Assembly (NCBI GenBank): GCA_026770585.1
Contig: MU646466.1
Coordinates: 609,281-642,575 of the forward strand
DNA: 33,295 nucleotides
DNA from: Baffinella frigidus
Taxonomy: Eukaryota; Cryptophyceae; Cryptomonadales; Baffinellaceae
Reading direction: 5' to 3'
Shown in pieces: positions 121 through 33,113 of the stretch; positions within the stretch are counted from its first letter, which is position 1, and the number at the start of each line of letters is the position of its first letter. A model generated the notes under the pieces. It ran no database searches, was not told the origin of the DNA, and was given only the letters and a program-made list of their open reading frames with translations. The position numbers and the translations under genes are program-made.

Positions 121-3100
121 GTAACAACCAAGGCCCTCTCCGAAGTGGGCGTGTAATGTCTGCGCCGTGCCAGTGGTGACATCCAAAGCACCCGTCTCCC
201 CCGGCTTCTGCACGCCATACGCCCCCGTTGTGTCAGAACCGTGTGACAAATATCATTGAAGGCCCTCTCCGAAATGGGCGTGTAATGTTCAGGAACCGAA
301 GAAATGCCCCCCGCTACATGCGCGTGGGGTGCCTGCTACGGTCATAACCCCGAAACGATTTTCAACCCTAAACAATTAAACCCTAAACTCAAACCCTACG
401 TGCAGCGTTTCGGGCTGCACGTTCACGTGGACCCTACACCCTAAACCCTAAACCCCAAACCCACAACCCCAAACCCTAATCCCTGAACCCGAAACCCTCA
501 TTGCTAAACCCTAAACCCTAAACCTACACTCAAACCCTCAGCAAGTGCTCCACGACCTGCCTCCTGCACCCTACCCCCTATCTCTCTAACGCCAACCCCA
601 AAGATGCACCCAATTGCCTCAACTCTCAAGCCGCGCCGCGTGGCGGGTTCACGTGGACCCTTGGCGCGTGGGGGCCCCCTCGGTTTTCACCCTCAACCGA
701 TTTTCAAGCCTCAACCGACAACCCCTAAAACCTAAACCTTAACCCTGGGTGCAGCGTGTCGGGGTGCACGTTGCTCTGGAAGCAGGAAGCGTGGGGCGCA
801 TGCTCCTTTCAACCCTAAACGGTTAAAACCTAAATCCCAACCTTACGACCCCAACCCTAAATGCAGCGTGGCGGGGTGCACCTTGGAGTGGAAGGAAGGG
901 TTGTGGGGGGCGTGCTCGACGACGTGCGGCTCCGGGACGCACGCGAGACTCGTAACCTGCCGAAGGAGCGATGGCGCCACGGTACGCCCCCCCCCCCCTG
1001 ATCGAATCTCGCCAGGTAGTTATGATAAACGATCACATTCTGTTGTTTTCAGCCGATTTTCTAGTTTTTTTCAGGCGATTTCGACATTCTAGTTTTTCTC
1101 AGCCACAAAACTAAGCCGTGATGTCCAGTTTCCAAGTGTTTGATTTAGATAGCTGGCGGGATGAGATCGCATGCCCAAAGCGCACGCTGCTGAATTGGAC
1201 GCGATTGTCTTACTTGGACGCGACTGGATCTACTTGGACGCGACTGTCGGACCAACGTTACGATAGAGGACGTTGAAGGGTTTGTTCGACTAAACCGGCA
1301 AAATTGCACCGGGGTGACTAACCCAACCCGGGCAGGGTTTGTTCGTGGAGAAGCTGAAATCAGTCAACTACTGCAGGTGTCCGTGGGGCAGTGTGCGGCT
1401 CTCGGACAGGCTCCCCCCTCCTCCGAGGCCTGCACCTCCGCTACAGGTTCTCTAGCTCTGTCAGGCTCGGGTTGACTGATCGTTTTCACACTCAAAATTA
1501 ACTGAATTGCACCAAACCCCCGGGGAATTAACTTCCGGGCTCGCGAAATTGGCGAGACCACACCGTGTAAAGTAGAGCTAGGTTCTAGCTCTGCCTTGGA
1601 CCGGTCAGCTGACTATTATTAAGTTGAAAATTTGGTGCGTGGTGACAATCCGTCGACTTTGGAGCGGGAAAGGACCCAGTCTCACCAGATGTGTGCGCCT
1701 CCGAGACATGAAAGAAGAAAGAAGATACCCGAAAGCAGAAAGACGAGTCCCGAAAGCAGAACCCCAAAACCCGAGCCCCAAACCTCGAAACCCAAACCCC
1801 CAAACCTCAAACCCCAGACCCTAAACCCTAAACCCTAAACCCTAAACCCAACCCCCAAACCCGAAACCGTCAGGGTGCAGCGACAACATGGTGAACGAGT
1901 GCACCGCGGGCTCTCACACCTGCGTATGCTCCTGCCCGAAACCCTAAACCCTAAACCCCAAACCCCGAACCCTGAACCCTGAACCCTGATCCCCAAACCC
2001 CAAACCCTGAACCCCCCAGGCCGAAGACGCAGTGTGCAGCGACGAGGTGAACGGGTACACGTGCGCCTGCAACCCCGGCTTCCTCGGGAGTGGGCACCTT
2101 TGCGTCGACGCTGACGAGTGTGTCATCGCCTCGCACAACTGCGCGGACAAATCCGCTGTCTGCGTGAACGTCGTCGGTTCCTACCGCTGCGAGTGCCCGC
2201 CTGGCACCCACACCACCAACGGAGGCTTCCCGTGTGTCCCGTGCCCTGCGGGGACCACCGCCACTTCCGTCGACGCCTCAGGCAAACGATCCCCAACCCC
2301 TCTCTGCTATCACCCGCGAAGCCTCTATCAAGATTGTTATTCCTTTACAAGGATTGGTGGTTCTTTATAAGGATTATAGAGCTTCTAGAGGGATAATAGA
2401 ACGTGAAGGAAGCCCTCACTGGGGGTCCCTCTCGGGAAAATTGTAAGCGCCGACGGGGCGGGACCACGGCTCTCGATTTTCTGCGAGACCACGCCAGGTC
2501 ACAAGTGAAAAATTTATAACGAAAATTTTCACTTTAAACGTGTTGCATGGTACAGATCACACATTGTTGCGGTGGCGGGCTATGGACGTTGGGCGTGTTT
2601 CTTGTACAAATCTGGTAAAAGTCTCCACAATTAAATTTAGAAAAAATCCTACTTGTGCCCTGGCGTGGGCCGAGAGAGAGAAGGCTTCATTGAAGTGGTG
2701 GTGGCGAAGAATTGTGCTGGCAAGCTTGGGCTCCACACAGCACACTACAAAGGGATTTCGTGAATAACACATACGCGAATATTCCAGAGGACCCTACGGT
2801 CCCGCAGGGACATAGGGTTGTTCCTGCCGATATCATATACGATTCTTGGTGGCTCAGCCACAAAGAATCCCTTCGTAGCCCGCTGCGACCGAAACTCAAC
2901 ACGCATGAATTGACCCTCTCCTAAAGCCCACACCCCACAGCCCAAAATCCTATCATCAAAACCGAAAGCCTGAACCCTCGCTTCCCGTCCAGAGTGCAGC
3001 ATCTGCGCGGCAAACTTCTACGGCAGCCCCACGGACGCCTGCCAGCCCTGCCCGGTCAACCCCACACCCTAAGTTCAGGGTTCAGGGTTCAGGGTTCAGA

Positions 3101-6100
3101 ATTCAGTGTTCAGGATTTAGGGTTTCATTGCGCGGCCACTTCTTCGGCAACCCTGCCTCCCAGGACGCCAGCCCTGCCCGGTACACCCCACACCCTAAAC
3201 CATTCAGCCTGAACCAAGTTACCATGCATTCATAAACACTAAACACTAAACCCTGAGCTCTGAACACGAAACCCTGAACCCTACACCCGCAAACCCTAAA
3301 CCCTAAACGCGCAACAGGTGGGCGCAGCTTCTTCCGCCGGGAGCAGGCATCCTTCCAACTGCATCTGTGGCCTCGGTAACCCTAATCCACCGCCCTCTCT
3401 CTGCCACAGTTGACTTTTGTGTGAGAAGCGGCAAAGTTGACACATGCCCGCGGGTGGTTTGACCACTTACGGAGGCTTGTTTTGAGCTTTTGGCTACTTT
3501 GGGGGTCTTTGGCCACTTTTTGGAGCCACGACGGCCTCCGTCCCCGAACACAAATAACTCCTCAACTCTGAACCCTAAACCTCAATCCCCAAACCCCAAA
3601 CCCTAACACTTTCCCCGATCACCCCGCAGGTTTCACAGGCAACATCACGACCACTTCTGACACGTGCGCCATCGAGGTATTCTCATCTCGAAAGATAACT
3701 GAATCAATTCCCTAATCAGCGTTTTCATTTAGTTAGGAGGCCTTAATATCCTATTCAACCTCCTATTGAAAAGGAAATGATTCGGTTATCTTCCGAGATG
3801 AAATCCATTGGATTCGGATATCAGAAATAGTTTTGCAAAGTTTTCAGAAATAGTTTCGTAAAGTCGAGCGTTCCACACATCGGGCTACGAAGGGGAACCT
3901 GGTGGCTGAGCCACCAGGTTTCGGTTCGGATGTCAATAGGACTAGCCTATGTCCCTATGGTATTGCCTGCCGTAGGGTCCTATAGATTATTCAGTCATGG
4001 GTTATTCACGAAATCCCTTCGTAGCCCGCTGTGTGGTCTGGTACAAATTTAAAACCCTGGGGGTTAAATACATGAGTTGGAGCCGTTTCGATTTTCAAAT
4101 CAGCACACTTTTATGATTTGTACCACAAGAGCGACCTTGCAAAATTATGCATACACTAAAGGACTGTGAAATCGGAATCGGGGCATCCGGTCGCCATACA
4201 CATCGTGCGCCGAACCCCCCCCGCGCCCTGAACCTGATTTCAGGCGCTCGCTGGTACTCATGCGGTCCACTTTTCATTATGCAACCACCAGGTTTTGACC
4301 AGCAATAAAACCCATTCAGAGCGGGCTACAGGTTTGGGGTTTTCTGTTGTCCCGCTCGGGTGTACTTCCTGAATAAAACGTCTCGCTCTCTATGAGTGCA
4401 GGATTCTTCTATCCCCCTTTTTTTCTTTTCTTCTTCTTCTTCTTCTTCTTCTTCTTCTCTTTATTACTCTCGATACAGTTCCTAAGTAGGACCTTAAGCC
4501 TAGAGTTGAGCGATCCAAAAGTCTAAAAGCCGTAATATCTCTCGTCGTGGACCCTCCCGCTCAGCTGTACTTCCTGAATAAAGCAACGCGCTCTCTATGC
4601 ACAAGGGTGGATGCATAGCCCGCTCCTAGGAATAGCTCCTAGAAAAAACCTCAACCCTCACCTCTAAGCCCATGTTTCCAGGAACTGTCGTCGTGGACCC
4701 TGCGCGGCTCTCCGGGCCTCTCGTGCGATTCGGTCTGTGGGAGCGTCGGGAAAACGTACTCGAAACCCGAAACCCGAAACCCGAAACCCTGGACCCCGAA
4801 GCCTCAACCCTTGTCGGGAAAAGTTACCCTCAACCCCGAACCCTGAACCCTAACCCCTAGACCCTAGATGGGTCTAGGGATCCCTAGACCCTAGATGGAA
4901 AAATGGACTCTGGTCCCTAGACCCTAGATGGGAAAATGGACCTCGAACCCTGAACCCTGGACCCTGAACGCTGAACCTTGAACCCTACATCCTCAACCCT
5001 AACCCCAAATCTTAAACCCTAACCCCTGAACCTCAAACCTTGAACCCCTACCGCTCAAGAAATCTAGATTAGCCCCTACAAGGTTTTGGGTTGCGAGATT
5101 TGCAATTCGCCCCACAGGGTACACAATTTCTCAATCGCAATCAATCAAGTTTCGCCGTCGCGCTTAGGGATCAGGATTTCTGGATTGCAGAAGCCTGAAG
5201 GCTGTGGGGACACCGAGCAGGTGCGTGCCTGGGCTGCTCGACCAGGTCGACACGACCGAGGAGGTCACCCCCCTCACATAAACCCCACACCATGAACCCC
5301 GAGCGCCTACCGCTAAATGCAGCCCTCTCTAAGCCCCTAGCCCCTGCCCCCTAACCCTGAATCACTCTCACGGTTCTCAACTACAACCTAAACCCGAAAC
5401 CCGAGGACCGAAAATCGAAACCCTACACCCGAAACCCGAAACCCGAAACCCGGAACCAGAAACCCGAAACCCGACACTCGAAACCCGAAACCTGAAACCC
5501 GAAACCCGAAACCCGAAACCTGAAACCCGAAACCCGAAAGCCTGAATCAGGTTGAGGCAGCGTCACAGGCATCGATGCGCGCTATCTTCGACCTCGAGGG
5601 CGAGGTGTGCGCCCCCCCTGCTGTAGGGTTTCGGGTTAGGGGTTTGGGTCTAGGGGCTTGAAATTTCTTCGAGTGCGAAGGTGAGGTATGCGGCATCACT
5701 GAAGGGTTTAGGGTTGAGGGGTTGGGTTTAGGGGTGTAGGGTTCAGGGTTTATGGCTTTCTTCGACCTTGGGCGAGATATGAGGCCTCGCTGCTTTAGGG
5801 TGTGGGGTTTGGGGTTTAGGGTTCATGGCTTTCGCGAGGTAGGTGGCCTCACTGTTGTACGGTTCTACACCGTCCTGGTACACACCCTGCCTGGTGCAGT
5901 CAACAGTCATGGGACTCCAGGCAGCGTTTGTGCACACACGCCACCCGTGGGCTCAGGCTCGTGTGTATCCCCGCCGGCGCTTCGAGGCCTCGAAGAGGCC
6001 ACGCCAGGTCTCAAGTGCGAATTTGATTCTCAAGTCCATCCATGAGTGAAGTTGATTCTCGCCCGGAAATATGCCAACGTCGACTGGAATTAGAGGCCTC

Positions 6101-9100: not shown

Positions 9101-12100
9101 TCAGGATTGTTCCTGGCGCTAGGCCTTTTCGGTTTCGTCATCGGACTGTTGCGAAACCTGACCACTTGAGGCAAGAAAAAGCAGTATTTAAAAACCGGGG
9201 GTCCTTTACAAGTGGGGCGGTGTGAAGTAATTTTCACACACATAGCAGGATATCCCGCAGCAGTAACGTGACCAACCCCTCCTGTGCCTGGTACAAATGA
9301 AACAACTCCACATTTAAAATACTCCCATTTCTAGCCTCGAGTGGGACCGTGCTGCTGGCTTTCACTCTTATTGGGTTGTGTAGACTCTGGGTGTAGACAC
9401 GGCGCCTTGCAAGCGCTGAGCAACACCTCACTCTCGCTTTCACTTCCGTTGGCACATCACCCATTTACATCATCTGTCTCTGCACGCTTTGGTGCTTGCC
9501 GCTAACATCTCTTTCTTCCCCTCTCTCTCTCTCCCCCCCCCCCCTCTCCTATCAATCCTTTCGATCAAAGTCTCTTCCTCTCTTGCAGGGGTTGGTGCTC
9601 GACACCAACACATCGCTTTCACCCTCTCTCTCCATTTCCATATCCCTCTCTCACACTCAAACATTCTCTCGCTCTCTCTCTCCCTCTCTCGCCTATGAAT
9701 CCTTTCAATCTGGGTCTCTCCTTCTGTTGCAGGGGCTGGTGCTCGCGAACGGAGTCACGGCTGGACACGGAGCCTCAGGCCAAGGCAATGTCGGCCTTGT
9801 CGTCAACAACCTTTTCTCCTGGACCACCCCCGGTGACACCAAGCTCCAACCCTGAGAACCAAACACTGAACCCTGAACCCTGAACCCTGAACCCTGAACC
9901 CTAAACCCTGAATCCTGAACCCTGCACACTAAACCCTGAACCCTGAACCCCAGGCCCAGCACCCTGAACCCCAAGCCCTTCACCTGCACCCTAAGCTCTA
10001 AACCGTAAACCCTGCACCCTATACCCTAAACCCTCAACGTTGCCACTAGCCCTCCGAACTATTGTGATCTTTGGGTTGCAGTCTGCTCAAAGGCACCCTC
10101 ATCAACCCACCCCTCTCCGTGACCACCATTTGTTGTTCGCAGCAACCCTACAGGACCTCTGACGTGGCATCTTCGCTTTACACGCAGACCCGTAGCCCTA
10201 AACCCTGAACCCCCCCACGAAGGAATCGGCGGCGATTCCTACAACGATTCCTTTGGCGGCGATTCCGGCGGCGATTCCCTCGGCGACGATCGGGATCCCG
10301 ACGCCGGCAATTCCTCCGTGGGCTCTGCGTGGTCCGTTTCCGAGGTAACTCTAACCCCCTGAACGCTGATCCCTGCACCCTGAACCATTTAACGAAAACA
10401 TGCAAACACCAAAACATAACCCCAAGAACCTCAAACCCCAAACCCTAAACCCCAAACCCCAAACCCCAAACCCCAAACCCAAAACCCCAAACCCCAAACC
10501 CCAAACGCTACCCCAGGTGGCCATTTGGGAGCGTGCGCTGACGCGCGGTGAGATGGAGGCAGTCTCGGCGCACCTCCTCCGTACTCTTGCAGAGGGCCGC
10601 GACACCCCCTTCGCCGCGTCGATGTGCCCTGGCGGCGTCGTTTCTTCGAGTGATGCGGAAGCGCCGTTCCTTTCGCCTTCGGGCGCGTGCTTCTTCCGCA
10701 ATGGAGCTGGCGTAGACTGCAGCGCCGGTAACCTTCAACCTCCAAATCCTAACCTTTAACCCCCAAAACCCAAAACCCAAACCCCAAACCCCAAAACCCG
10801 AAACCAAAACCCCAAACGCCGCACCCCAAACCCCAAACGGCACGCAGCGTCGTTCGGGCGGAGGCGGCTGTGCATGTGTGCGGCTCCGTGCGCCGCCGAC
10901 TTCTACGGATCAGGCACCGAGTGCACTGCCTGCCCTCCCGGATCTCACTCTTCTGCAGGCACGCCCCTTCACGTTTCTGTTCTGATCTTGTTGTTCTTGC
11001 ACGTGTTCGTGTTTTTGTTCAGCAGTTTATGAAAGACGTTTGGCACTCTGGTTTGGGTGATACGTGGGATCGAGGGCTCTACGACCTCACCCGCAGTCTC
11101 CCCAGCAGTGCCCACTCCATCGTATCCAGCTCAGCGGGTGTATTCGGGCTTGTATTTCTCTTTTCCACAACGCACCATTACACTGCCAGGGCGGAGCTTT
11201 TGTATTAGTCAACTCTAGACCGAAAAACGATTTTTCAAATACACATTACGTGTATCTCGTTTCTAAAGTTGACAGATTTTTGGGGGTGTCAACTTTAACA
11301 AAATCTCTGAATTCGCAGTGCATTAGCTCCTCGAGGCTACAGCTTAAACCCTAATCCATAAACCATAAACCGTAAACTCTAAAACCCGAACCCCGAACCC
11401 CGAACCCCACGCCCTAAACCCTAAATTGACCTTCCCGAACGGATAGCCTGACCGTCAAGCTCTGCACGACCTAGGCAAAGAACTCTCTCGCGAGAGACTT
11501 CTTTGTTAAACAACAACAGATCCGGATCAACTTCACCCCTGCAACGATTCAGTGGATCGTCCTGGTTTAGGGTCTCGTGCCATGGATGTTTGAATACCCT
11601 GTTCCCGGAAGCGTTAGATCTACGTTCCTTGAAAGGCCTGAGATTGACATTGGATGCAGGCAGTGAGACGGCCATGGGTTGCACGTGCCCTGGATCGACA
11701 TACCTCTCTGGGCCGGTGCGTCCTAAACCCGAAACCCGAAACTCGAAACCCAAAACCGAAACCCGAAACCTGAAACCCGGCAACCAAAATCCAACACCCG
11801 AAACCCGGCAACCGAAACCCGAAACCCGAAACCCGAAACGCGAAATGACACCTCCCCTATCAGCCCCCACAAGTCGGCTTGATCGAGCAGCAGAAGTCCA
11901 CTCTCTAGCTTTGCCTCGCACGATCGGGTTGACGCACGATCGGGTTGACGTTTTCTGGCATCAAGTTTTCTCTTCAAACAACAAACCTCCCTCTCCCTCC
12001 CCAGGGCGTCGCCGGCGGCTCCTGGCGGTGCGCCGCATGCCCTCCCAACTCCTTCTCGGCCCTCGGGAGCCTCAGCGCCTCCGATTGCTTCTGCCAGTCT

Positions 12101-15100
12101 GGGTTCTACTCCTCCGGGGCGGGGGCTGACTTGACGTGCGCGGCCTGCCCTGCGGGGTCGGTCTCGCCCGGCGGAAGCAGGTGTTTGCCCCAAACCCCAA
12201 ACCCCGGATCTCTGACGCTGTGTCGCTGGAACGCGCTCGCCTGTTTCAGCTGCAACGGCTTGAGAATTCGTGGATTGAACTGCGTGATTGTCGAGTGCAT
12301 GCACTTGCCAGGGGGCTCAAGAAGGTAAACGAGGACGAAACTGCCGTGCCAGGGTTTGCGACAAAGCCAGAACCGAGTCTGTCAGCGTCATCCGGTGGGC
12401 ACGAAAACGCATCAACTGCATTTTCAAGAGTACTAATTGCTCTTTCCCTTGACCGCAGCGACGCGGGGTCTTGCCAGTGTCCAGCGGGGACGTTCGGCAA
12501 ACCCCATCTTGGCAACTGTGTTTCGTGCCCTGCTCTCAGCTCCAGGTCGCCAGTCCCTCAACCACAAACCCAAAACCCTAAACCCTACCACCCTAAATCC
12601 TGAACCGTGGACCCTACGCCCGAAAACCAAAACCCGAAACCCTAAAGCTAAAACCCGAAACCCTTATCAGTGCGGAGGGAAGCACTGTTGTGGAAGACTG
12701 CGTCTGTATGTGAGCGCCTTCCCCTCCCTCCTGCGTGTCTACTTTATCTAGCCTAGAAAAGAGTGGTCTAGAAGTCAGCCAGACGATGTGCCCAGGATGG
12801 GATTGCCCGAGAAGGGCCTTGCAAAACCCATCTGTCTGTGAGCGCCCTCCCATCCTAAACCCCAAACCCTAAACCCTAAACCTCAAAACCTAAACCTATA
12901 ACCCTAAACCCCAAACACTAACGCCGAACCTTCAAACCCCTATTCCAGGTGGGGGTTTGGCGTGGCAGAGCTCGGTTTCAGCCGGCGCATCACAAGCCCC
13001 TCGCAGACCTGCGAAATGAAAATCGACGGCCTGGAGTTTGGTGGCGCTGGACTGAGCTGCTCCGAAGTGTGCTCAGCCTCGGGCCGCGTGTGCCTGCCGT
13101 TCCCGCCTGCGGGCCGCAACTGGCTTCAGGCGGCGGCGGCGGCCAAAGTAAACCCTAAACCCTCAACTTCACCCCTGATCCCTGATCCCTAAACCCTAAT
13201 CTCTGATCCCTATACCCTAATTCTGTATCACTAATCCCTAATCTCTAATCCCTGACCCCTAATCCCCAAACCAGGACGTCATGTGTTCCTCCATCAGCGA
13301 GAGCTCCTCGGAAAGCTTATCGCAGAACCCGTCAGACGGGGCGTGCTATTTCTCAGGCTCAACCGCCACAGCCCCCTCGACGTGCGCAGCTTCTTCTGCC
13401 AACAAGCGGTTCTGCATGTGCGGGTAAATCCAACCCCCAAAACCCAAAACACATAATCCAAAATCCAGGAACCTAACCTTTAAATCGTAAACCCTAAACC
13501 CTAAACAAAATCGTAAACCCTAAACCCTAAACAATAAACAATACACAATAAACAATACACCATGAGCCCCAAACCCTAATCCCTACACCCGAACCCCAAA
13601 CCCAAAACGCAGGTGCCCGATCGGCGAGTACGGAACAGGAGGCGCGTGCACGGCGTGCCCGCCAGGAAGCTCAGCTCCCGCAGGAAAACCTGCCCCTACA
13701 CGCCAAAACTCAGAACCCCAAATCCAAACCTCAAACCCCCAACCTGAAACCCTAAATCTCCTGTCTCTCTCTAACTCTGCCTGTAGTACGACTGCGTCCG
13801 CCGCCAACCCCTAAACCCTAAACCCTGAACCCTAAATCCTGAACCCTAAACCCTAAACCCTAATCCCTAAACCCTGATCAATAACCACCTGACTCTCTCG
13901 GTGTTTCCAGGGAGCACAATGGGCACGGCCTGCATCTGCAACACTTCGACCTACGGGGAAATCTCCGCGGAAGGTATCGTCCTGCTGCATATGCAGCAGC
14001 GTCCTGCTGCGGATATCGATTGCGGGCGCCTGCCGGACCACGCAAGAGGCTATTGTTGTTCTGGAGCAGAGAAAGAGATTGTTTTACTGACACGAACAGT
14101 CTAGATTCCAGAACTGTTCTGTGCCTTCTGGAGCCACATAGTCTTTCTATATGCATGGTACAAGTCGGCCTCTTTTGGGACCGAATCAGGGAATCCTCCC
14201 GCAAAACGGACGTTTGGCGAAGCCGAATTGGGCTGTAGCTTCCGCTGAGCACTTAGAGAGAGAGAGTTCTCAACCAAGTGGTCTGGATCCACTTCATCAC
14301 CGAAGTAATTTAGCGGACCGTCCTCGCGCCATGGGTTGAATCTCTTTTTTCTGGCAGCCTTAGTTCTAAATTCCTATCATTCAACTCAGTCCAAGCCTCT
14401 CGCGTGGTGGTCTAATACCCCACGAAATCAATCTCCTACTCGCTCGGAACACTAAACCCGAAACCTTAAACCCGAAACCCGAAACCCGAAACCCTAAACC
14501 CTAAACCCCAAACGCTGCACTAATTCTGACGCTCGGAAGGAACCGGGACGTGCGCGGATTGCGCGGACGGAACCGCTGTCGCGTCCTTCCGCATTGAGGT
14601 CACGTCCTTCCCCAACGCAGACACGTCCTTCCTCAAAACGCCTTGCTCTTCCTCAACACGTTAGCGTACAGTATTGACGGAGGGGACCGCGGTCGCATCT
14701 TTCCGCATCGAGGTATGGACCTTGTTACGTCCTTCCTCTAGACGATTTGCTACCCTGAAGCACACTTGTTGAGAGAAGTCAAAGTCCTTCGCACCCCTCT
14801 GGAAGATCTCCGCACCCCTGAGGACGATCTTCGCACCCCTCTGGATGATCTTCGCACCCCTCTGGCACACCCTTCCGCACCGAGGTTCCCGACGTCGCGC
14901 AGCCTTTTTGTGAAAGAGCGCTCAAATGGACTAGACGGGTTTGCCTCAGAAAAAGATGAGCCCGCCGCAGGACGAGGAAACAGGCCTGACTCTGAAGCCT
15001 TCTGCAGGACACCTTTGCGGCGTCAAGCTCCGACCTCCACGGCTGGGAGGGCTCGACCGAGGTACCTCGCCGGGCGTATTGGAATTATATTTGGGGATTG

Positions 15101-15670
15101 GAGCTGGTACCGGAATTGGAGCCTAACCTGGTTTGACGGGATCGCGTTTGTTAGTTCGGAGATCCTCTGGTACAGTTCTGAGTTTCTTGGCAGCAGTTCT
15201 CGCACTCTCTCCTATCAATAAAGGGCCCGATCACGCCAAACAAGGTCTTCCTTGTATTGTCGAAATGGGCTCCGCGCGAAAAAAGCTGAGGTCAGGTCAG
15301 GCACGGATCCAACATTTTTTCGAAAAATTTGCCCTTTTGTGTCATCTTATGGGTGGGGGATGCTATTTTGGGATAAAGCAATGCCTAAGATAGCATAAAA
15401 GTTCATTTTTTGAGAAATCCGGCTCGTTCCTGACCTGACATCGATTCCGCGCGGAGCCCATTTCGACAATATCAATCCTATCTACAGCTCTTTCTCTCGT
15501 AACAAAAACGCCCACCTCCATCTCTCTCCCCCGCAGGTCTCGCAGTGCGGTGGTCTGGGCGCGATGCTGGGAGGGTACGCGCAGCTTGGGCGCGCGTCGT
15601 TTCTCAGGTTCTTCTCTCCCTCGTATCTCTCGCTCACTCGCTCGCTTGCTTGGTTCATCAGGTTCCTCTC

Positions 15671-15741
<71 letters not shown>

Positions 15742-18700
15742 ACGACCCCACCGCTGTTTCTTTCTGTGTCTTTGTCTTTATCTTTCGCCTGTGCTCTTCA
15801 TTATCCATTCGTTCTCTCTCCCCCCCCCACCCCATTCTCTTTCTCCCCCTCTCTTTCGCTGTCCCCCCTATCTCCCTCTCCATCAGTCTCTGTCTCGCAG
15901 TCTAACCCCGCGGCCCACGCAGGAAAAGCGTGACCGGGCTGTGCAGCCACAACGAAGTGTGGCTCTCCTTCAACCTGGTTGCCATCGACGGCTGGGATGG
16001 CGAGGACGCGATTCTCTACGCTGACGGAGTCGAGGTAACCCCAACCCCTGAACCCTGAACCCTCAAAACTAAACCCAAAACCTCAAACCTCAAACCTCAA
16101 ACCTCAAACCCTAAACCCTAAACTCTAAACCCTAAACCCGGAAGAAACCCCTTTCCCACCGCCAGCCCTTTGAAATGAAGCATTTTGACCGTGTAATGTT
16201 TTCTCGGATTTGTACCGTGCGGAGAGGGGGGGGGATTCACAAACGCCCCCTGAAAACACTTGGAGGTTAAGAACGATCCAGAGGCATTGTTTGAGGGAGC
16301 GGATGGCAGTTTCAAAGCCCGATACTCTCCCGCACGCCATCCACCACTGTTGAGTCTGCTTCTGGAATGAGACATGCACATACCTCTATCACTCACGCGT
16401 GACCCTTCGCAACTTGCGCAGGACTCTTTGAAAGGGTCACGCGTGCCTCTTCGAAACTTGACTCACGCGGGACCCTTCGAAACTTCCGCAGTCCTCCAAC
16501 AGCCCGACCGGAGACGTTTATTGATAGCAGCATGGCCGCAATGCATTCCCCCACAGAGAAGCTATGCTAAATTCGACTAATTGAGTTATCTTTCGAGGCG
16601 AGCTTTCGGGAGGCGTGTTTGCACCCACCTGTTTGGATGCAGTCAAAAGAAAGTAATAGCATCAATTGTTCAGTAGGCAAATCGTCGATGTTTGTTATCT
16701 TTTCAAATCTGATATAGGCTTTTACGTAATTTTGATGTTATTTTGCCTCTTCCTCATCATCATTCAATTTTTTAAGAATATCATCTAATAATGTTTCTGT
16801 GAACTCCTCAAATCTCAGTCCCAGTCTGCTCAGCAATTCAGATGCACCGTCTAAACCACAACACATTCAGCCCTCTCCTGGTACAAAACGTCCCCCTTAG
16901 TAAAAGCGATGAAACCTAGCTGCGGGAGCAATTGGAGGTTGAACATTCACAGGTGTACCTCCCAACCCGGGCAAAGGGCAGTGCCCTGGTCCAATTGCTC
17001 CACTTTGTAGAAAGGCCTGTATGTGATGTGGTATAGACTGTACATCCGTCTCTCCTTCCTGTAGCTCAGTTGGATTCCGCTCGGTCACACTCAAGAGTTC
17101 GTGACTTTATGGGTGTCTAATAACCTTCTCTCGTGTGCGTAGGTCTGGCGGCGGCCCTTTTCCTTCTCCGGCTCTTCCTCGTGTGGCGGGAGCGGCGCTG
17201 AGGGTTCAATCGCAGGCAAACCCCCCAACTCTAAATCCCGGATCCCAACTTCTAAACCCCAGACCTCAAATCTCAAGTCCCAAATCCCCCAAAGCTCATC
17301 ATCCTCTAGAGGGAGCGGCGCCGATGGAATAATCTCGGCAACACCCTAAACCCCCAACCTGTTTGTCGCTGCCGAGTCGAACATGGCCCCTAGACACTGA
17401 ACCCTAACCCATAAACCGTAAATTCGAAACCCTGAACCCTGAACCCGACCCCCCTACAAACAGGCGGTATCGTGGTCGCGCACAGCGCGCGGGCGCTGAC
17501 GCTCGAGCTGCGCACGACGCTCACCGCTGAGGCTGATGTCGTCTCGTGGGGGTTGGCGAGCTTCACTGTCTACGCCGATTGCACGGGGGAGAGCGCTGCG
17601 GCGTGTGCGCCGATCGTTGCTACGGACTGCGCCCCTGTTTTGGTGAGCGGAACACCTCTCTCTTCCCCCTCTTCTCGATGTCGATCTGCCCCCCTGCCTC
17701 TCCCTCTCTCCATCTCTGCATCGCCCCGAATACTCTATCTTTGTCCCGCTCTCCCGCTCTTTCGTTCTCCAGCTGTGCCGCTGTCTCCCTCTCTGTCTCT
17801 CCCCCTCCATCTCTTCCTCTCTCCCTCGCCCCGAATGTTCTCCAGGTGTGATCTCTATCATGCGCTCTGTCTCACTTGGGTTGACGGACTATTCTCAAGT
17901 TGACTCTCTGAGTTTCTTGAACAAGTTCGTCAACTTTGGAGTAAAAAATAGCCAGCCCCCCCCCAACTGACTGGGTGAGCAAAATGACACTGCGACAGAG
18001 CTAGACTGTATTGGACGCTGGCCCTGGTTCGTGCCCCCCCTCTGCGCTTGCTCCTCCCTGCCCCTGACCTCGCAGAATTGGGAAGGGTTGGTTGAATCCG
18101 TGTTTTCAGGATTGCGGTTGTCGGAGTGGTTCGAGTGGCTGAAACTCTAAACCTCAAACCCGATGTGTCGCTGAAAAGTCTAATCTAACCCTTGAACCAT
18201 GACCCCCAAGCTATACTTTTAGAGGAAAGTGATGTGATGGCAGGGTACACAGGTTCGCATCAACCCAAATCCCCAAACCAGGACTCATACTCTGGTACGT
18301 GTGGCATCTCTGTGAGCGGTGTCGAGTGCTGGGGTCTCTCCTTCTCGACAAACCCTTCCGGCAAAGCAGTGGTATAACCCCTAGACCCTAGACCCTAGGC
18401 ACTAGACCATAGACCATAGAACATGAACTCTGGACCCTAGACCCTAGACCCTGGACCCAAGACCCTAGACCCAAGACCCAAGACCCAAGACCCTAGACCC
18501 TAGACCCTAGACCCTAGACTCTAGACCCCGAACCAGCCCTCCAAGTCGATGATATCATCGTTTGGAAAATTATGAGAAGGAACCGGGTGTGGTAAGTACC
18601 AATTCAGTAGCCGGTGTTGGAACTACTACCGGCAAACGCTTGGGAAATGCCGATGTGTAGGGATTTGAAACCCCTCCCACACGTCTGCAGGCAATCGCCG

Positions 18701-21700: not shown

Positions 21701-24700
21701 GGGTTTGTCGGTGTTCCGGGTTTTGCCATCCAGATATTTTGCAAAGTAAAAGTATTTCAGAGGGCCTCGCTAGGTCCTGCTCAGACACAGCCTCCGTGGG
21801 AGTGCATGCATGTCGGCCGTGTTGGTAGGTGTAGAGGACTCTCTGGGTTTTGATGTAAGCGATGAATCTGATACTCTTTGGAAGCGCGTCTCTCCAATAC
21901 CAAGGGCTACCCCGACTCGCCAAAACCGAGGGAACCCCCCTGCTCGGAACCATCACCGAAAATGTAAACACTGGGCCTTGGACACCAACCCCTAATTCCT
22001 AAACCCCAACCCCTCAACCCCAACCCTAACCCCTAACCCCTAAACCCTAACCCCTCACCCTTGACCCAGGCCATCTCGGCCGGGTCCTACCACATCTGCG
22101 CGTTACTCGAGGACCGCACAGTGCGCTGCTGGGGGCAGTCGTTCTCGTCGCGTGGGTCGCTAACCGAAACCCGAAACCCAAAACACTGAAACCCGAAACA
22201 TGAAACTCGAAACCTTGGACCCTGAACCCTGTACCCTGGGCCCTGGACCCTGGACCGTAACCCCTGACCCCTCATCCCTCATCGCTGATCCATTGCACCC
22301 TACACCCTGAATCCCTACTCCTGAACCCTTAACCCTGAATTCCTACTCCTGAACCCTAAACCCTGAACCCCTACTCCTGAACCCTAAACCCTGAACCCCA
22401 AACCGGGGCTCGACACGAGGGACACTCTTGGGTATCGCGACCCAAGCCCCAAGTTCCTAATCAAACCCCTCAACCTTATTCCCTCAACCCTTAACCCAAA
22501 CTCGGAATCCAGAACCCCAACCCACAAACCCCAAACTACAAAACCCCTAACCCCCACCCTCAAAACCCCAACCCTAAACCCCAAACCCCTAAAACCCCAA
22601 ATTTTAAACAGGTATCGGGACTCGGTGCCCTCGAATCGATTCCTCTTACGGTTCTACGGGGACCACACCAAGTTCGTCCTTGCGGATTTCCAGGTGATTC
22701 CGTGGGGTTTTGGGGGAGGCTTTAGGGTTCAACTTAGCAGCGACCGAGGACCTTTTCACCTTGAATTCAAGGCGAAATTCCGGTTAGGTTGGAGGGCAAT
22801 GGATAAGATTCTAGTACAAATCGTTTAGATGGTCTTTATCCGTGAAGCCCCCATTGGCTGCTAAGTGGAGGGAGAGGCTTTAGGGTTGCATGCGGTTCCA
22901 CGACGACCGGACAAACCGTCCGAATTGTAAAACGTGGTCCAAACTTGGAGAACGTGATATCAATATGATTATATTAAGTAAAACAATGGTTAAATTAGAC
23001 AAGCCTATTTATGCTGGGTTTTGTCGAAGTTCGTCCTTGCGGATCATCAGACCAACCTCTCCTAACCCAAAACCACCAAACGGGTTTACGCACAAACGAA
23101 ACGGGTTTACGCATAAACGGGTTCACGCATAAACCACGCATAAACGAAACGGGTTTACGCATAAACGGGTTCACGCATAAACCACGCATAAACGAAACGG
23201 GTTTACACATAAACGGGTTCACGCATAAACCCGACACCCTGAACCCGAGCTGTCAGGACGGAGTCCTACACCCCAAACCCCAAACCCCAAACCTCAAACC
23301 CTAACCCCTGAAGCCTAAGCCGTAACCCCCCGGCCCCTAACCCCCACACTCTAACCCCCCAATCCCCAACCCCAAACGCTCAACGCTAAACCCGAACGCC
23401 TGACCCCTCAACCGTGCCCCAGGCGGACCTTGCCGTGGTGCTCTGGCATGTCAAGGCAGACAAAATCGTGCTCGAGGAGGGCCCGACTCAGGTACCACTC
23501 GAGACAGGCAGACAGACAGACAGACAGACAGATAGATAGATGGATAGATAGATAGGCAGACAGACAGTGGCCTTTGTTTAAAATCTACAAGTGTGCATAA
23601 AACCTCTTTTAGAGTAAAACCTCTTTTAGAGGTTTTGTCGAGGAAGGCCCGGCTCAGGTCACCTGGATTAGGGTTTAGGGTTACAAGTTGGAGTTTGCTT
23701 AAATTGGCGTTCCTGGTACAAATCGGGTACAAATGCCGGGAATCAAATTGGCCCGGAACCCCCCTATACCCCTACGGGTTGCCTACCGTAGAGTCCTAGG
23801 TCTCATCGCTTAGGGATTATTCAAAACCCCTTCGAACTCCGCTGTGTGGCCTGGTCCAGACCTGGCCATTTGATTTCCGAGATTTGGCCCGACTCAGGTA
23901 CCACTGGAGGCAGACAGTGACCTGTGTTTAGAATCTACAAGTGGGTGCGTGGAACCTCTTTTAGAGGTTTTGACAAAACCTCTAGAACTAGAGGTTTTGA
24001 CAAAACCTGCAAGGTCGGGCCCTCTACGACCCAGGTCATTTCTGAATTGGCCTAAGGTTGATCCCCTGAGATTGTTACCAGATTTTTGCCAGGAACACGC
24101 TAAACGTCGATTGCCCGCTGCGCAACAGTGTGGAATTTGTACAGCGAAACACCTTTCAAGCGAAATCGTTGCGTTCTGAACTTTCCGCTCGGGGCCCCGA
24201 CCCAAGGTATAGAGTTTGGACTGCTCGTTTCCGAATAGTAAAACAGCAGAAGAGGGGCAGAGAAGGGTCTGGAACGCTCTGGAAGCGTCTGGAAGCGTCT
24301 GGAAGTTGCGGGTTTCGAGTGTAGGGTTTTGGGGGGGTCTCATCCTGCTGCGTCTAAAACCTCGTCTGGAAGGGTCTGGAACGTCTGGAATGGTCTGGAA
24401 TGGTTTGGAACGTTCTCGAAGGTCTGGAACCTGATCCCCAACCGCCGCAGGCGGACGAGACCCCACTGGCCTCAACGACTGCCCAAGCGGCGCGCCGCGC
24501 GGCACAGGCCCGTCTCGGGGGGCGCGGGGCGCGCCTCCCTACCGGCTTTTCTGAGTCGGAGTTTCCGGAAGGTTATTTACCCGAGACCCGAAATCCGAAA
24601 CACGAAACACGAAACACGAAACACGAAACACGAAACACGAAACCCTAAACCCTAAACCCTAAACCCAGGGGCGGGTTCTGATGCAGACCGGGAGGAGGGG

Positions 24701-27700
24701 GGGAGGAGGAAGGGGGTGGAGGGTGGGCCGTATGACGGGTGCTAAACCCTAAACCCCAAACCCTAAACCTCAAACCCTAAACCCTAAACCCCGACCGTAT
24801 GACCGGTGCGGCCCAACCCCCGTGTCTTGAGGGGTTTAGGGTGTATGGGTTGTAAGTTGAGGGTTTATGTAGCCGGGTTTACGGTTTAGTGTAGCTCTGC
24901 ATGGAGGCGTTGGGGGTCGCTGTAACCATAACCTCGGTATACCGAGGTTATTGTTCGGGTTTAGGATGTAGGGTTGCCGAGGTTGGGGTTGGGGTTTAGG
25001 GTTTAGGGTTTGGGCTCCCGGACAGCCCCGCCCGATTTGATGGTAGGCGCGACACTGAACCCTGCACTATCCACCGTATCACCCTGCACCCTAAACTCAC
25101 CCTAAAACCTAAACCCTAAACCCTAAACCTTCAACCCTAAACCCTAAACCCTATACCCTAAACACTACACCCTGAACCCTGAACCCTGAACCCTAATCCC
25201 TCAACCATACACCCGAAGCCCTCAACCCTAAACCCCGAAACCCAAACCCGCCCTGCAAACTTTACAAACAGCAACACATCTTCAAACCAGGAACCCGAAA
25301 TCCTAAACCCTACACTCTCATCCACCCCTAAAACCCTACAACATAGAACCTTTCAACCCGAACCCCTAAAATCTACACCCAAAAGCCTTATACCCTCATA
25401 CCCGAACCCGGGTAAAGGTATTCCAGGGGGTTGATGGGCGCTCCCAGAAACCCAACCCCCAAACCTCAAACTCCAACGAACCCTGAAACCCAACCCCCAA
25501 CCCCCAAACACCAACGAACCCCGAAACCCAACCCCCCAAAATCCTACAACCTACAACCTTAAACCCAAAACATTCAACCCTAAACCCCAAACCCCAAACC
25601 CTACAGCCTAAAACTAAATCAGCCTTACACCCCTAAAATCTTACAACCCAGGTATTCCGGGGGGGTAATGGGCGCGCCAGCGTACGTGCCTCTGCAGAAC
25701 CTCGGCGCCTACAATGTGGTGAGTCACCCCAAAAGTGGCCAACACGTCCCCATTTTAATTTTTTAAAAGAGCGTGTTTTTTTTCGTCCTGCTTTCAGCCC
25801 GTGACAAGAACAGCGTCGGTACAAGTTTGTTTTAAAAGGTGTTGTTGCCGACGATAAAGAAGCGAAAACGCAACCTTCCGGATCCGTGATGGGCGTACGT
25901 GCCTCTCCGGAACCTCGGCACCTCAAAGTGGTGAGTGCCCTCAAAAGTGGCCACCTTCGGGGTTTAGGGTTTAGGGTTTAGGGCTTACTCCAAGAATACT
26001 GTTCCTCCGTGAGCACGGTGAACTTCCTTAAACCATAAACCTTAAACCATAAACCTTTGCGCTTGTCAACTTTACACAGTAAAGTGGTTAGCTATTAACA
26101 CTGTAAAGTGGTTAGCGATTAAAACAGTAAAGTGGTTGGCGACCCCAAACGCGTCCAGGCAGAGCTACCCGAAACCATAAACCCTGAGCACTGAACCCCA
26201 ACCCTCGGCGCGTTCGAAGTGGTCAGCGAACCCCGCACTCCAACCACACAGCGGGCTACGAAGGGATTTTCGGCCCAAATCGGGCCACCTTTCCGTAACC
26301 TTATCCGTAAGAACCCCCCTATGTCCCTACGGGTTACCTACCGTAGGGTCCTAGGTCTTATCGCGTAAGGGTTATTCGAAACCCCTTCGAAGTCCGCTGT
26401 GTGGCCCCTAACTCCAAACCGGCAATCGACGCAGCAGCCCAATCCCAGCCTCTTTAAAATGTCAAAACGGCTCCAATTCCTCAACAAACCAAACCCCAAA
26501 CCCCTCCCCAGGTGGTAGAGCGCTGTGCAGAGAAGTTGGCCACGGGAAATAATAGAAAATCGAGAAATTGGAGCCATTTGTCAACTTTTGAAAAATTTAG
26601 TACCATGAATTTCTCAAAAGTGGATAAAATGGCTCCAATTTCTCCATTTCCCCATTTTTTGGTGGGCAACTTCTCTACACAGCGCTCTAACGCAGCTGGC
26701 GCACAAGCAACGCGCCATCAACCCCCGCACCCCATCACCCAGCCTGTTAAATGTCAAAATGGTAATTCCTTAACAAACCCAAATCGTTGACACACCCACT
26801 TGCTGGACAACCCCCCCAGCCCCAGGTGACAACCCTGGTGGGGCGGAACATGACAAGGCAGTCACCTCGGACAGTTGGCTTCAGCGTCCGCGTGACCGGT
26901 CACGCGGGCGTGCTTGTGCAAGCAACGCGCCATCGACGCACCAGCCCTTTAGGTCCTTTAGGTTTTAAATGCTCCTAACATAGCCCAACGACACGCCCTT
27001 CCGTAGAAAGGACTGCAGAGAAAGCATTTTTGCTTTCGGATCGCGTTTCAGCTCTCCAGTGCAGACCAATCCCCAGCCTTCAAAAACGTCAAGATGGCTC
27101 TCCAATTTCTTAACAAACCAAACCCCAAACCCCTCCCTAGGTGATGACGCTGCGCACTTGCGCACGAGCAACGCTCCATGAACCCCCGCTCCCACCAAAA
27201 TGTCAAAACGGCTTCAGCTCACCCTCTTCAAAATGTCAAAACGGCTTTAAAATGGCTCCAATTCCTTAACCAAAAAAACATGTAAACAACAGGTGATAAC
27301 GCTGGTGGCGCACAAGCAACGCTCGATCGACGCAGCCGCGAAGAACCTCCTAGGCGAGGAGGACAGGGCGGTGGATGCCACGGCCCAGGCGCGCCGCACG
27401 CATTTCATGCACCAGTGGCAGGTCCTTCTCATCCCTGGGGTTGGCGGACTATACTTAAGTTGACGTGATGGCTGTATGGTACAAATTCGTCACCTTTGGA
27501 GAGGGATGCCACCGCCCAGGCGCGCCGCACGTTTCATGCATCAGTGGCAGGTCGCGTCCCGAACCGTACTCGAAAACGTGTTTTAAATTTACGATTGTTT
27601 GTAAAAAAGGCACGGTTTAGAATATAGAAGGGCGCGTTTTGAAAGGTATGTTTTAGAATATGCAGCGCTCAGGGCGAATCTGGGGTTGGGTGTTTTTATG

Positions 27701-30700
27701 GGGGGACGCGGTGAGGTGGGAAGCTCCTAGGCGAGGAAGACAGGGTGGTGGCCTGCGGTGGATGCATCCTGAGAACACGCAAGGCAGTCACGACCGACCG
27801 TCTGGCTTCGGCGTCCGCGTGACCGGTCACGAGCCTGCCGGCGGGGCTGTTCCACGTCCAGGCGCGCCTCACACATTTCATGCACCAGTGGCAGGTCCGG
27901 CCTATCCCTCAACCCGAAACCCTGAACCCCCCCCGGATCCCTACAACCGCACGCATTTCACGAAAAGCTTCATGGAAGGCTTTCCGTCGAGTCGGGTTGA
28001 CGGACTATTCTTAAGTTGTCATGCTGGGTGTGTGGTACAAATTCGTCAGTTTTGGAGGGAGGGATGCCACGGCCCAGGCGCGCCGCACGCATTTCATGCA
28101 CCAGTGGCAGGTCTTTCCCCCACACTCCCCTCCTAACCCACTAAGTTACTGAGGTCTGATAACCTCAACGTCTTCGTCCGGTTTCGTGACCGCCTACCGT
28201 TACCACACAGCGGGCTACGAAGGAATTTTCGGGCGTTGAGAGCCCGAGTTTCCGTTACCTTATCCGTTGGAACCCCCCCTATGTCCCTACGGGGTGTCTA
28301 CCGTAGGGTCGGGTTTAGGGATGATTCAGCGGTGGATGCCACCGCGCAGGCCGCACCTACTTGATGTACCAGTGGCAGGTCCGGCCGATTCCTGAACATG
28401 TAGCATAGGAGGCGACACAGCAGCCCTGTTCACTGTCCGAGTAAATCTGGGTACGTCATTGTTAGTTTTACAGCAGGGGGGGCAGTACAAATTAAATACA
28501 TTTCACTGCCAGGGCGGAGTTTTTGTATTAGTCAACTCAAGGCGAAAATCGATTTTCGAAGTACCCAATATGGGTACCTCGTTTCTAAGTTGACAGATTT
28601 TGTGGGTGGATTGACTTTTACAAAATCTCTGGCCTGGCAGTGCATTTAGACGCCTAAATGTATTTTATGACGTGCGCAACTTTACTCGGACAGAGCACGC
28701 ACTTCACGCACCAGTGGCAGGTCTTTCCCACCTCGATAAAACTATCGTTATGGGTTGGGGGTGGCTTGGTGAAATCAGTTGGGCTTGTTGATATTAGACT
28801 CTTCCACGGGTGCGTTGTAGGCAGTTCATGTCACTGGAGGAGGAGGAGGCGACCATGAACCCTGAACCCTATCCCCCAAACCCAAAACAGTACCCATCTA
28901 AGCCCCAAACCCCAAACCCTAAAGGGGGACTCGTAAACTTGGTAATCCCATTCGAGCTGAAACCTGGGGTTGGCAGGGCTTGTTGAAGTTAAACGTTTCC
29001 ACGGGTGCGCTGTGAGCGGTTCATGTCACGGGATGATCAGGCGACCCTGACCCTGAACCCTGAATCCCAAACCTCCAATCCTGAACCCTAAGCCCTAAGC
29101 CCTAAGCCCCAAACCCGTGCAGCTGATGTCCCTGGAGGAGGAGGAGGAGGCGATCATGAACCCTGAACCCTATCCCCTACACACCCAAAACACTAATCCA
29201 TATGCCCCAAACCCTCAACCCCAAACCCTCAACCGTGAAGCTGATGTCCCTGGACGAGGAGGTGTGCGCGAACCAAGACGTTAGGATCATAATACCACAA
29301 GTAAAGTAATTGTGCATTTCTTCGCGATGCAATTAAACGCTAGTTGAACGCAACCTGTAACCCGTAAATCAAATGATATTAAACCCTTAACTCCGAACCC
29401 TCAACCGTACAGCTGATGTCCCTGGAGGAGGAGGTGTGCGCGAACCAGACGGTCATCGCAACCGCCGCCACCACCGTGGTCAGCACTGAGATCGTACGCT
29501 CCCCTAACCCCCCTACCCCCGAAACCCTAAGCTGAAACCCTGCGCCCGACATCCAAAATCCTGAACCCGAAACCGGGAACCCGGAACCCGGACCCCGGCT
29601 ATCGCGACGGAAGCCACCACCGTGGTCGGCAGTGAGATTGTACACTCCCCTCCCCTCCCCGGAACCCCAAATTCCAAACCCGGAACCCGGAACCCGGAAC
29701 CCGGAACCCTAAACCCGGAACTCCAAACCCGGAACACCAAACCCAAAACCCCAAACTGACAACCCAAAACCCAAAACTCCAAACCCAAAAACCAAAAACC
29801 AAAACCAAAACCCAATACCCAGAAAAACCTGGACCAAATGCACTGCCAGGCCGGATATTTTGTAAAAGTTAATTCACTCACAAGATCTGTCAACTTAGAA
29901 ACGAGGTACCCAGATTGGGTACTTCTTTACTACACATTCGCGGGTGAGTTGACTAATACAAAAACTACGCCCTGGCAGTGAAATGAACCACAAACTCCAA
30001 AAAAAACCTGAACCCCAACCCCCCAAACAACCTGAACCCTGATTCCCAACAAAAACTGAACCCTGAACCCCAACCCAACCACCCCCCCCTAACTCCCCAA
30101 ATCCTAATTTCTGAACCCCACACCCCAAACCCCACACCGGAACCCCAAACCCCCGCCACCTGGGAAACCTCACCCCCCCCAAAAAAGGTGTGAAGCTGAA
30201 TAAAGGGACATTTTCACAGCGGCCTACTCGACACCCATAATTCCTGAACCCCAACCCCCAAATCCCAACCTCCAACCCCAAACCCTCAACCAGGTCTGCA
30301 AACTCAACCAGCGCGACATTTTCACACCCGAAAACCTTGAACCCTGAACCCCGACAAAAACCTGAAGCCTGAACCCCAACCCCACCCCCATCCCGCAGGT
30401 TTGCAAGTTGAACCAGCGGGACATTTTCACAGCGGCCTACTCGACGCCGCCCTACTCGTGTCCTCAGAACACTTTCAAGGCCGGGCTTGGCTGCACCAGC
30501 TGCCCGCTCCAGGTCCCAAACCCTGACCCTAACCCACCAGCAACCTGTAGCAGCTTAAAATGGGTCCGCCGAAGGCATCTTTTATCCGTTATGTCGGACC
30601 TTACGGTAGGAAACACCTAGGGACCTATGGACCTAGGAATCTCGGGATGGCTGGTGCCTCCATACTCCTGTACCAGCTGCCCGCTCCAGGTCCCAAACCC

Positions 30701-33113: not shown

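Follow-up and report, generated by a model that had tools for sequence, protein, structure and literature searches.

Intron lengthening is usually attributed to mobile elements. Duplications within genes, exon and intron sequence included, were reportedly described as common by Gao and Lynch in 2009. For the RdRp gene of potato, a tandem genomic duplication across an intron-exon boundary has been described (Ma, Lan and Niu 2016, PMC4974935), in which the end of an intron (its 3' part) and the beginning of the following exon (its 5' part) were duplicated together, side by side and in the same orientation. It represents one event; ten sites distinguish the copies, and the new copy undergoes splicing and alters the exon structure. 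According to the same paper, which cites Gao and Lynch (2009), duplications internal to genes are commonly observed. Under the Rogers model, an intron is gained through duplication of an exon segment which holds AGGT (PMC3443670, PMC2891723). Introners are elements which are copied into many genes and add to the intron content of these genes (PMC9860276).

A single plus-strand gene of the cryptophyte Baffinella frigidus spans the whole window, that is, the entire stretch of 33,295 nucleotides which was analysed. Like the potato gene, it carries direct duplicates of intron-exon boundaries, but unlike the single spliced copy of the former, thirty-nine listed copies derived from fourteen exons are found inside its introns, many diverged, some arrayed, and on both sides of the exons. 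With the Rogers model it shares tandem duplication producing copies of splice sites; however, that model duplicates an exon segment to form a new intron, whereas one breakpoint here is intronic and, as far as can be judged from the sequence, an old intron grows. As with introners, sequence is added to introns, but each B. frigidus copy matches its own neighbouring exon only. The claim made in the original prediction that no described system matches must be withdrawn, as tandem duplication across the intron-exon boundary has already been published for potato. Boundary-crossing duplication is thus of a known kind as single cases, and it is the occurrence of so many within one gene that is unusual. 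As far as could be seen in the literature surveyed, there is no description of such density, and the number, two-sidedness, arrays and silent retention of the copies appear to be new. Many intron-lengthening events not due to mobile elements are visible in one gene, each with its source and direction. If this holds genome-wide, the events that lengthened introns in cryptophytes could be counted from the sequence, and these algae would naturally test how a spliceosome passes over partnerless splice sites.

An automatic gene finder over-predicted the gene, with 159 exons, and a curated exon list was used instead. Forty-nine exons (X2–X50) were placed, with phase kept at 46/48 junctions, a continuity that is partly by construction as frames and some boundaries were picked to fit phase. 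The conceptual protein comprises 1,760 letters, is stop-free and includes RCC1-like, EGF and thrombospondin type 1 domains (Pfam), while Rfam at gathering thresholds gave no match. In a protein search, the exons between 4682 and 19289 aligned exon by exon with the B. frigidus proteins P0001–P0003. Another B. frigidus model, P0014, is letter-identical to exon X43 and to the stretch 24668–24712, with X44, located between these, having the same reading in the P0014 sequence; the remainder of P0014 was not found in the window. The phase breaks at X2–X3 and X44–X45 point to unlisted exons, one of which, going by P0014, would be located at 24668–24712. The most copy-rich exons, X45–X49, are predicted as exons from their open frame and phase, with no protein match known to cover them, among which only P0014 was checked residue by residue. 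X3 (1881–1923) was considered as an exon copy and rejected, as its reading is that of a genuine EGF exon whose phase fits X4.

Exons were compared against introns by blastn with telomere-like sequence masked (E ≤ 0.1). Thirty-two of the thirty-four matches occur in the adjacent intron in direct orientation, with the other two found elsewhere, one of them on the minus strand. Among the adjacent matches, twenty-six lie at the predicted edge, defined as a match within 6 bases of it (14 upstream with the exon start and 12 downstream with the exon end), six are internal and none are at the wrong edge. Two of the internal matches (X31 and X48) extend to the edge on closer alignment, that of X42 ends 6 bases before the exon end with the donor gone, and the three of X46 do not reach the edge, two of them adjoining an insert. 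In Smith-Waterman alignment of exon edges, 13/49 exons had a predicted-side match at p < 0.001 relative to a null of 9,604 comparisons. This null includes 196 comparisons with the adjacent minus strand, none of which reached p < 0.01. Off-side matches comprised five downstream matches of the 5-prime edge (X5, X10, X27, X31 and X45) and, at p < 0.01, four upstream matches of the 3-prime edge (X47, X45, X39 and X23). Seven of these can be ascribed to the shortness of the exons (73 bases or less for the five downstream matches), where the 60-base query spans to the other end, while the upstream X39 and X23 matches are weak and without explanation. The fourteen accepted exons (Table) include twelve of the thirteen in the Smith-Waterman set, with X8 excluded because of a short match confined to one side of the splice site, as well as X15 and X22, which were added by eye and alignment. 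The copies of the latter two were not recovered by the blastn or Smith-Waterman scans, and for the X15 copy the intron part of the period has a z of 9.3. At least sixteen exons with copies had been predicted, and while many exons do carry them, this figure was slightly high. The X47 copy at 29018 was identified by a similarity match and reading only, and has lost its AG by reading.

Table. Exon-edge copies in the B. frigidus window, with the exons from which they derive
Feature	Position	Strand	Description
Exon X2	867..981	+	intact; thrombospondin type 1, Pfam TSP1_ADAMTS
X2 upstream copy	379..431	+	acceptor and 26 exon bases, then telomere-like repeat; back-to-back p 0.05
X2 upstream copy	729..805	+	acceptor and 51 exon bases; back-to-back test passed
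X5 (exon 2993-3054), downstream copy	3126..3207	+	exon end, donor and 24 intron bases; back-to-back failed
X10 (exon 5551-5604), two downstream copies	5666..5806	+	both pass the back-to-back test
X15 (exon 9733-9832), upstream copy	9559..9601	+	acceptor, pyrimidine tract and 13 exon bases
X22 (exon 12671-12709), downstream copy, weak	12820..12855	+	exon end and donor; back-to-back failed
X27 (exon 14540-14598), two downstream copies	14673..14886	+	exon end and donor; back-to-back: first passes, second fails
X31 (exon 17143-17215, GC donor), downstream copy	17294..17358	+	back-to-back failed
X42 (exon 22612-22693), downstream copy	23027..23050	+	aligned to 6 bases before exon end; donor lost; back-to-back failed
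X43 (exon 23423-23491), three downstream copies	23638..24036	+	exon end and donor; two pairs tested, both fail back-to-back
X45 (exon 25652-25718), upstream copy	25385..25444	+	acceptor and 27 exon bases; back-to-back p 0.05
X45, two downstream copies	25876..26233	+	exon end and donor; back-to-back failed
Exon X46	27293..27421	+	intact; own codon-position signal weak
X46 array, three upstream copies	26434..27189	+	acceptors read at 26512, 26826 and 27141; two split by inserted elements
X46, five downstream copies	27504..28730	+	ends 27550, 27894, 28110, 28378 and 28720; all five with donor GT
X47 (exon 29413-29493), upstream copies	28822..29280	+	at 28825, 29018 (decayed), 29123 and 29241; 1/3 pairs passes back-to-back
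X47 downstream copy	29596..29664	+	passes back-to-back test
X48 (exon 30399-30512), two upstream copies	30166..30326	+	back-to-back failed
X48 downstream copy	30668..30714	+	22 exon bases, donor and 23 intron bases; back-to-back failed
X49 (exon 32094-32206) array, five upstream copies	31112..31912	+	1/5 pairs passes back-to-back
X49 downstream copy	32683..32776	+	58 exon bases and donor; passes back-to-back

As a control, 400 random non-telomeric intron segments of exon length were searched for local copies: 54 were at the right edge, 50 at the wrong edge, 104 internal and 10 full, compared to 22, 0, 6 and 0, respectively, for the forty-nine exons in the same test. The right to wrong edge ratio thus differs between exons (22:0) and random segments (54:50) with a Fisher p of 5e-6, a value which is too small given that the matches are mutually non-independent. 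Among the comparisons made within the window this control is the strongest, and the expectation that upstream copies keep the acceptor and exon start, and downstream copies the exon end and donor, is borne out. Local copies are carried by 10/49 exons and 93/400 intron segments (p 0.72), so that exons join local duplication approximately as often as intron DNA, and the side rule reflects survival around exons rather than the duplication process. Among the forty-nine exon queries at E ≤ 0.01, no whole-exon copies were found within 1,500 bases, and no matches beyond this distance or on the minus strand. The random intron segments produced 570 far matches, which represent other, dispersed elements in the introns, distinct from the exon-edge copies.

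Homology starting in the exon continues past the splice site, with an intron part aligned in 36/39 rows; it is lacking in X42 and in two rows of X46, which inserts have split. The flank of each copy is more similar to that of its own exon than to the flanks of other exons, with the observed mean reached by 7 and 0 of 5,000 permutations (fixed positions without gaps; X47 copy 29018 excluded). Each upstream X49 unit comprises intron, acceptor and 61 exon bases, repeated in tandem, with the unit at 31541–31717 matching that at 31977–32154 at 93 % over 178 columns, and two other pairs at 73 % and 76 %. The same tandem build is evident in the upstream X46 array, where four unit pairs match at 56–85 %. 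Full-unit tandem homology is clearest in X49, X15, X10, X27, X46 upstream and X47 downstream. When thirty-six pairs were subjected to a back-to-back test against composition-matched intron windows, eight ranked first of 301 and eleven reached p ≤ 0.02, with twenty-five above this value under a null that is strict in telomere-like DNA. The pairs that did not pass include 15/20 downstream and 10/16 upstream pairs, the latter mostly located in telomere-like DNA, with its high null. All five downstream X46 pairs failed, with mobile elements in between, and in several downstream copies homology ends a few bases past the donor, with inverted-repeat elements or unrelated DNA between. By reading, the cut of the X46 copies at 27504, 28056 and 28695 and of the X49 copy at 32683 coincides with the end of an inverted-repeat element. 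Simple tandem duplication does not predict an element ending at the cut unless the element arrived later, and both later insertion and filler captured in repair are compatible with the interrupted downstream pairs. Tandem duplication with one exonic and one intronic breakpoint, as originally proposed, is partly supported, by the direct orientation, adjacency, side rule, splice-site crossing and clear units, while the majority of pairs failing the back-to-back test count against it. The special mode of intron growth that had also been proposed is unnecessary, since the side rule is expected from any tandem duplication combined with an intact exon.

Mismatches between exons and copies at codon positions one, two and three amount to 57/481, 40/485 and 101/480, respectively, across thirty-eight copies (X47 29018 left out), with a chi-square p of 2e-8 that is too small, as copies from one exon are related. 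Selection had been predicted to retain the intact exon, and the doubling at third positions, approximately as predicted if the exon is constrained and the copy neutral, supports this. Indels in the exon parts of the copies include thirty that break the frame and three in frame. From exon to copy, letters come to resemble intron composition, with 67 changes of G to C or A and 27 in reverse, and the intron copy thus seems to be the derived one. Under random placement of duplications with the observed lengths, the expected shares of partial, full and internal duplications are 0.68, 0.27 and 0.05. The only whole-exon duplicate seen, relative to this expected 27 %, is the RCC1 exon pair X35/X39 (19012–19161 and 20885–21034), which includes both splice sites, is ~92 % identical and is separated by three exons. 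If at least twenty independent events are represented, whole-exon events would be in deficit (0.0004 for all twenty being partial), which would suggest selection against them.

The copies very probably stem from short local duplications that recurrently spanned splice junctions, the single intact exon being kept by selection. A background of short local duplication would act along the gene, on exons and introns alike, and a stretch that starts in the intron and ends in the exon, or the reverse, would give rise to an intact exon and a truncated copy, the latter carrying the acceptor if upstream and the donor if downstream. Such events would spare the coding sequence and persist, while whole-exon or exon-disrupting duplications would mostly be lost. 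The copies would subsequently decay without coding constraint, take up mobile elements, sometimes re-duplicate into arrays, and lengthen the intron. An origin by local duplication would probably apply to all copies, and the molecular step may be replication slippage, or staggered-break fill-in with capture of filler or an element at the junction. The latter step is central to a more tentative explanation, in which a staggered break, or a transposition-linked event, is filled on both sides of captured DNA to give copy, filler and copy rather than back-to-back units. This alternative, which is conceivable though we consider it doubtful, would account for the inverted-repeat elements at or near the cuts of the downstream X46 and X49 copies, the absence of full-period homology in most downstream pairs, and the cuts joined directly to C-rich telomere-like sequence (14/17 upstream and 3/21 downstream). 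However, the clear tandem units of X49, X46 upstream, X15, X10 and X27 are without filler, and the introns are C-rich in any case, so that telomere-like joins require no special cause. The elements may also simply be later arrivals in copies that lacked constraint, as are those in two upstream X46 copies, which by reading have exon sequence on either side.

It is highly improbable that whole exons were duplicated and then truncated, leaving the copies as remnants of complete exons. The X35/X39 pair demonstrates that whole-exon duplicates exist, but random truncation should leave either edge on either side, which is at odds with the lack of wrong-edge copies in both comparisons, and four of the five upstream X49 copies are cut at one common point, after exon base 61. 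That the copies serve under selection as decoy or alternative splice sites appears very unlikely. Splice dinucleotides are retained in 35/39 rows, where GC donors are scored as kept, the row for X47 29018 measures a neighbouring copy, and two X46 rows are without AG because of inserts, the acceptors of these copies at 26512 and 26826 having AG by reading. A gapless count at fixed positions is below this aligned count, with 15/17 acceptors and 13/21 donors kept. This retention does not differ from the neutral expectation of 0.81 at the codon position 1–2 rate (p 0.22), and there is thus no sign of decoy sites being used or purged; preservation of the splice sites of the copies by selection, which had been considered, was accordingly dropped. 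Furthermore, 30/33 indels break the frame, and donor-like motifs follow the upstream acceptors in only 3/18 stretches. Collapse or expansion of repeats during assembly might be invoked for a copy that is identical over 49 exon bases (28062–28110), but artefacts are expected to be near-identical and blind to exon edges, whereas 28/39 rows are 5–25 % different from the exon, four more than that, and the copies respect the exon edges. An assembly artefact is thus extremely improbable, and local duplication with retention of the intact exon remains the preferred explanation.

The forty-eight introns have a mean length of 562 bases (median 414.5). Genome-wide mean intron lengths are 106 for Guillardia theta and 171 for Goniomonas avonlea (PMC6260743). 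The fourteen introns containing a copy average 896 bases and the other thirty-four 424 bases, although longer introns also give more room for copies. Edge-to-edge spacing ranges from 78 to 535 bp (median 172, later inserts included), and the edge-to-edge spans total 7,760 bases, part of which lies upstream of X2, outside the forty-eight introns. The exon-derived aligned letters number 1,451 relative to 26,969 intron bases (~5 %), while 37 % of the intron DNA is telomere-like and C-rich. The copies thus contribute to the introns but do not constitute their filling, and the assertion that they fill the introns was too strong.

On the sense strand, 42/44 stretches of telomere-like repeats are C-rich (sign test 1e-10), counting stretches with at least three motifs each in the forty-eight introns and the two window ends; excluding the ends, this is the case for 40/42. 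In the window, AACCC occurs 594 times and GGGTT 97 times, and the dominant heptamer variant differs between introns. The core repeat, CCCTAAA, contains neither AG nor GT, and YAG occurs 593 times in the introns on the sense strand and 1,026 times on the opposite strand. The sense C-rich orientation might follow either transcription or the chromosome arm, as one gene fits both, and this strand bias may be more important than the exon-edge copies. A two-part ratchet could be envisaged, whereby exon edges, their splice sites still live, are carried into introns by frequent short duplications, while expanding C-rich sense telomere-like repeats form splice-inert padding around the decoys, with splicing, through selection or a transcription-linked bias, setting the repeat orientation genome-wide. 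We regard this ratchet as speculative and rather unlikely; if true, the edge copies would represent a dated fossil record of intron growth. Telomerase healing as the origin of the telomere-like joins was not adopted, given that, by reading, the upstream strand is wrong for exon-end addition and the downstream joins are mixed. G-rich (TTTAGGG-like) patches are located at 3073–3124, 5620–5830, 24830–25010 and 25960–25985. The first two of these sit at the cuts of the downstream copies of X5 and X10, with G-rich telomere-like DNA found at the cuts of both X10 copies, the second of which has AT in place of the donor GT.

The donors of three exons are GC, at 2282 (after X4), 10959 (after X18) and 17216 (after X31), and that at 13684 (after X25) is apparently GA. 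These non-GT donors were placed by phase, and those of X18, X25 and X31 also by homologous proteins. The region following the X35 donor (19162–19289) aligns in frame with the end of P0001, at 74 % identity for 19209–19289. The P0001 model thus probably runs into the intron, with the paralogous introns still alignable. Several short elements also occur in the introns. One family, found in both orientations and with ends like CACACAGCGGGCTACGAAGG, has members outside the listed exons at 2733–2885, 3878–4036, 7217–7448, 8213–8326, 23755–23849, 26262–26404 and 28202–28290. A second family, likewise in both orientations, is represented at 11176–11307, 28499–28580 and 29854–29974. A pattern scan of viral contig and genome contig collections for one mobile-element end gave no match. 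The downstream X49 copy sits, by reading, directly after an inverted-repeat element at ~32437–32680, which is composed of two tandem repeats with units of 57 and 43 bp. Within the exon copies flanking X46, the same 60-base sequence, with one palindromic end, occurs at 26846–26904 and 27773–27831 with 87 % identity.
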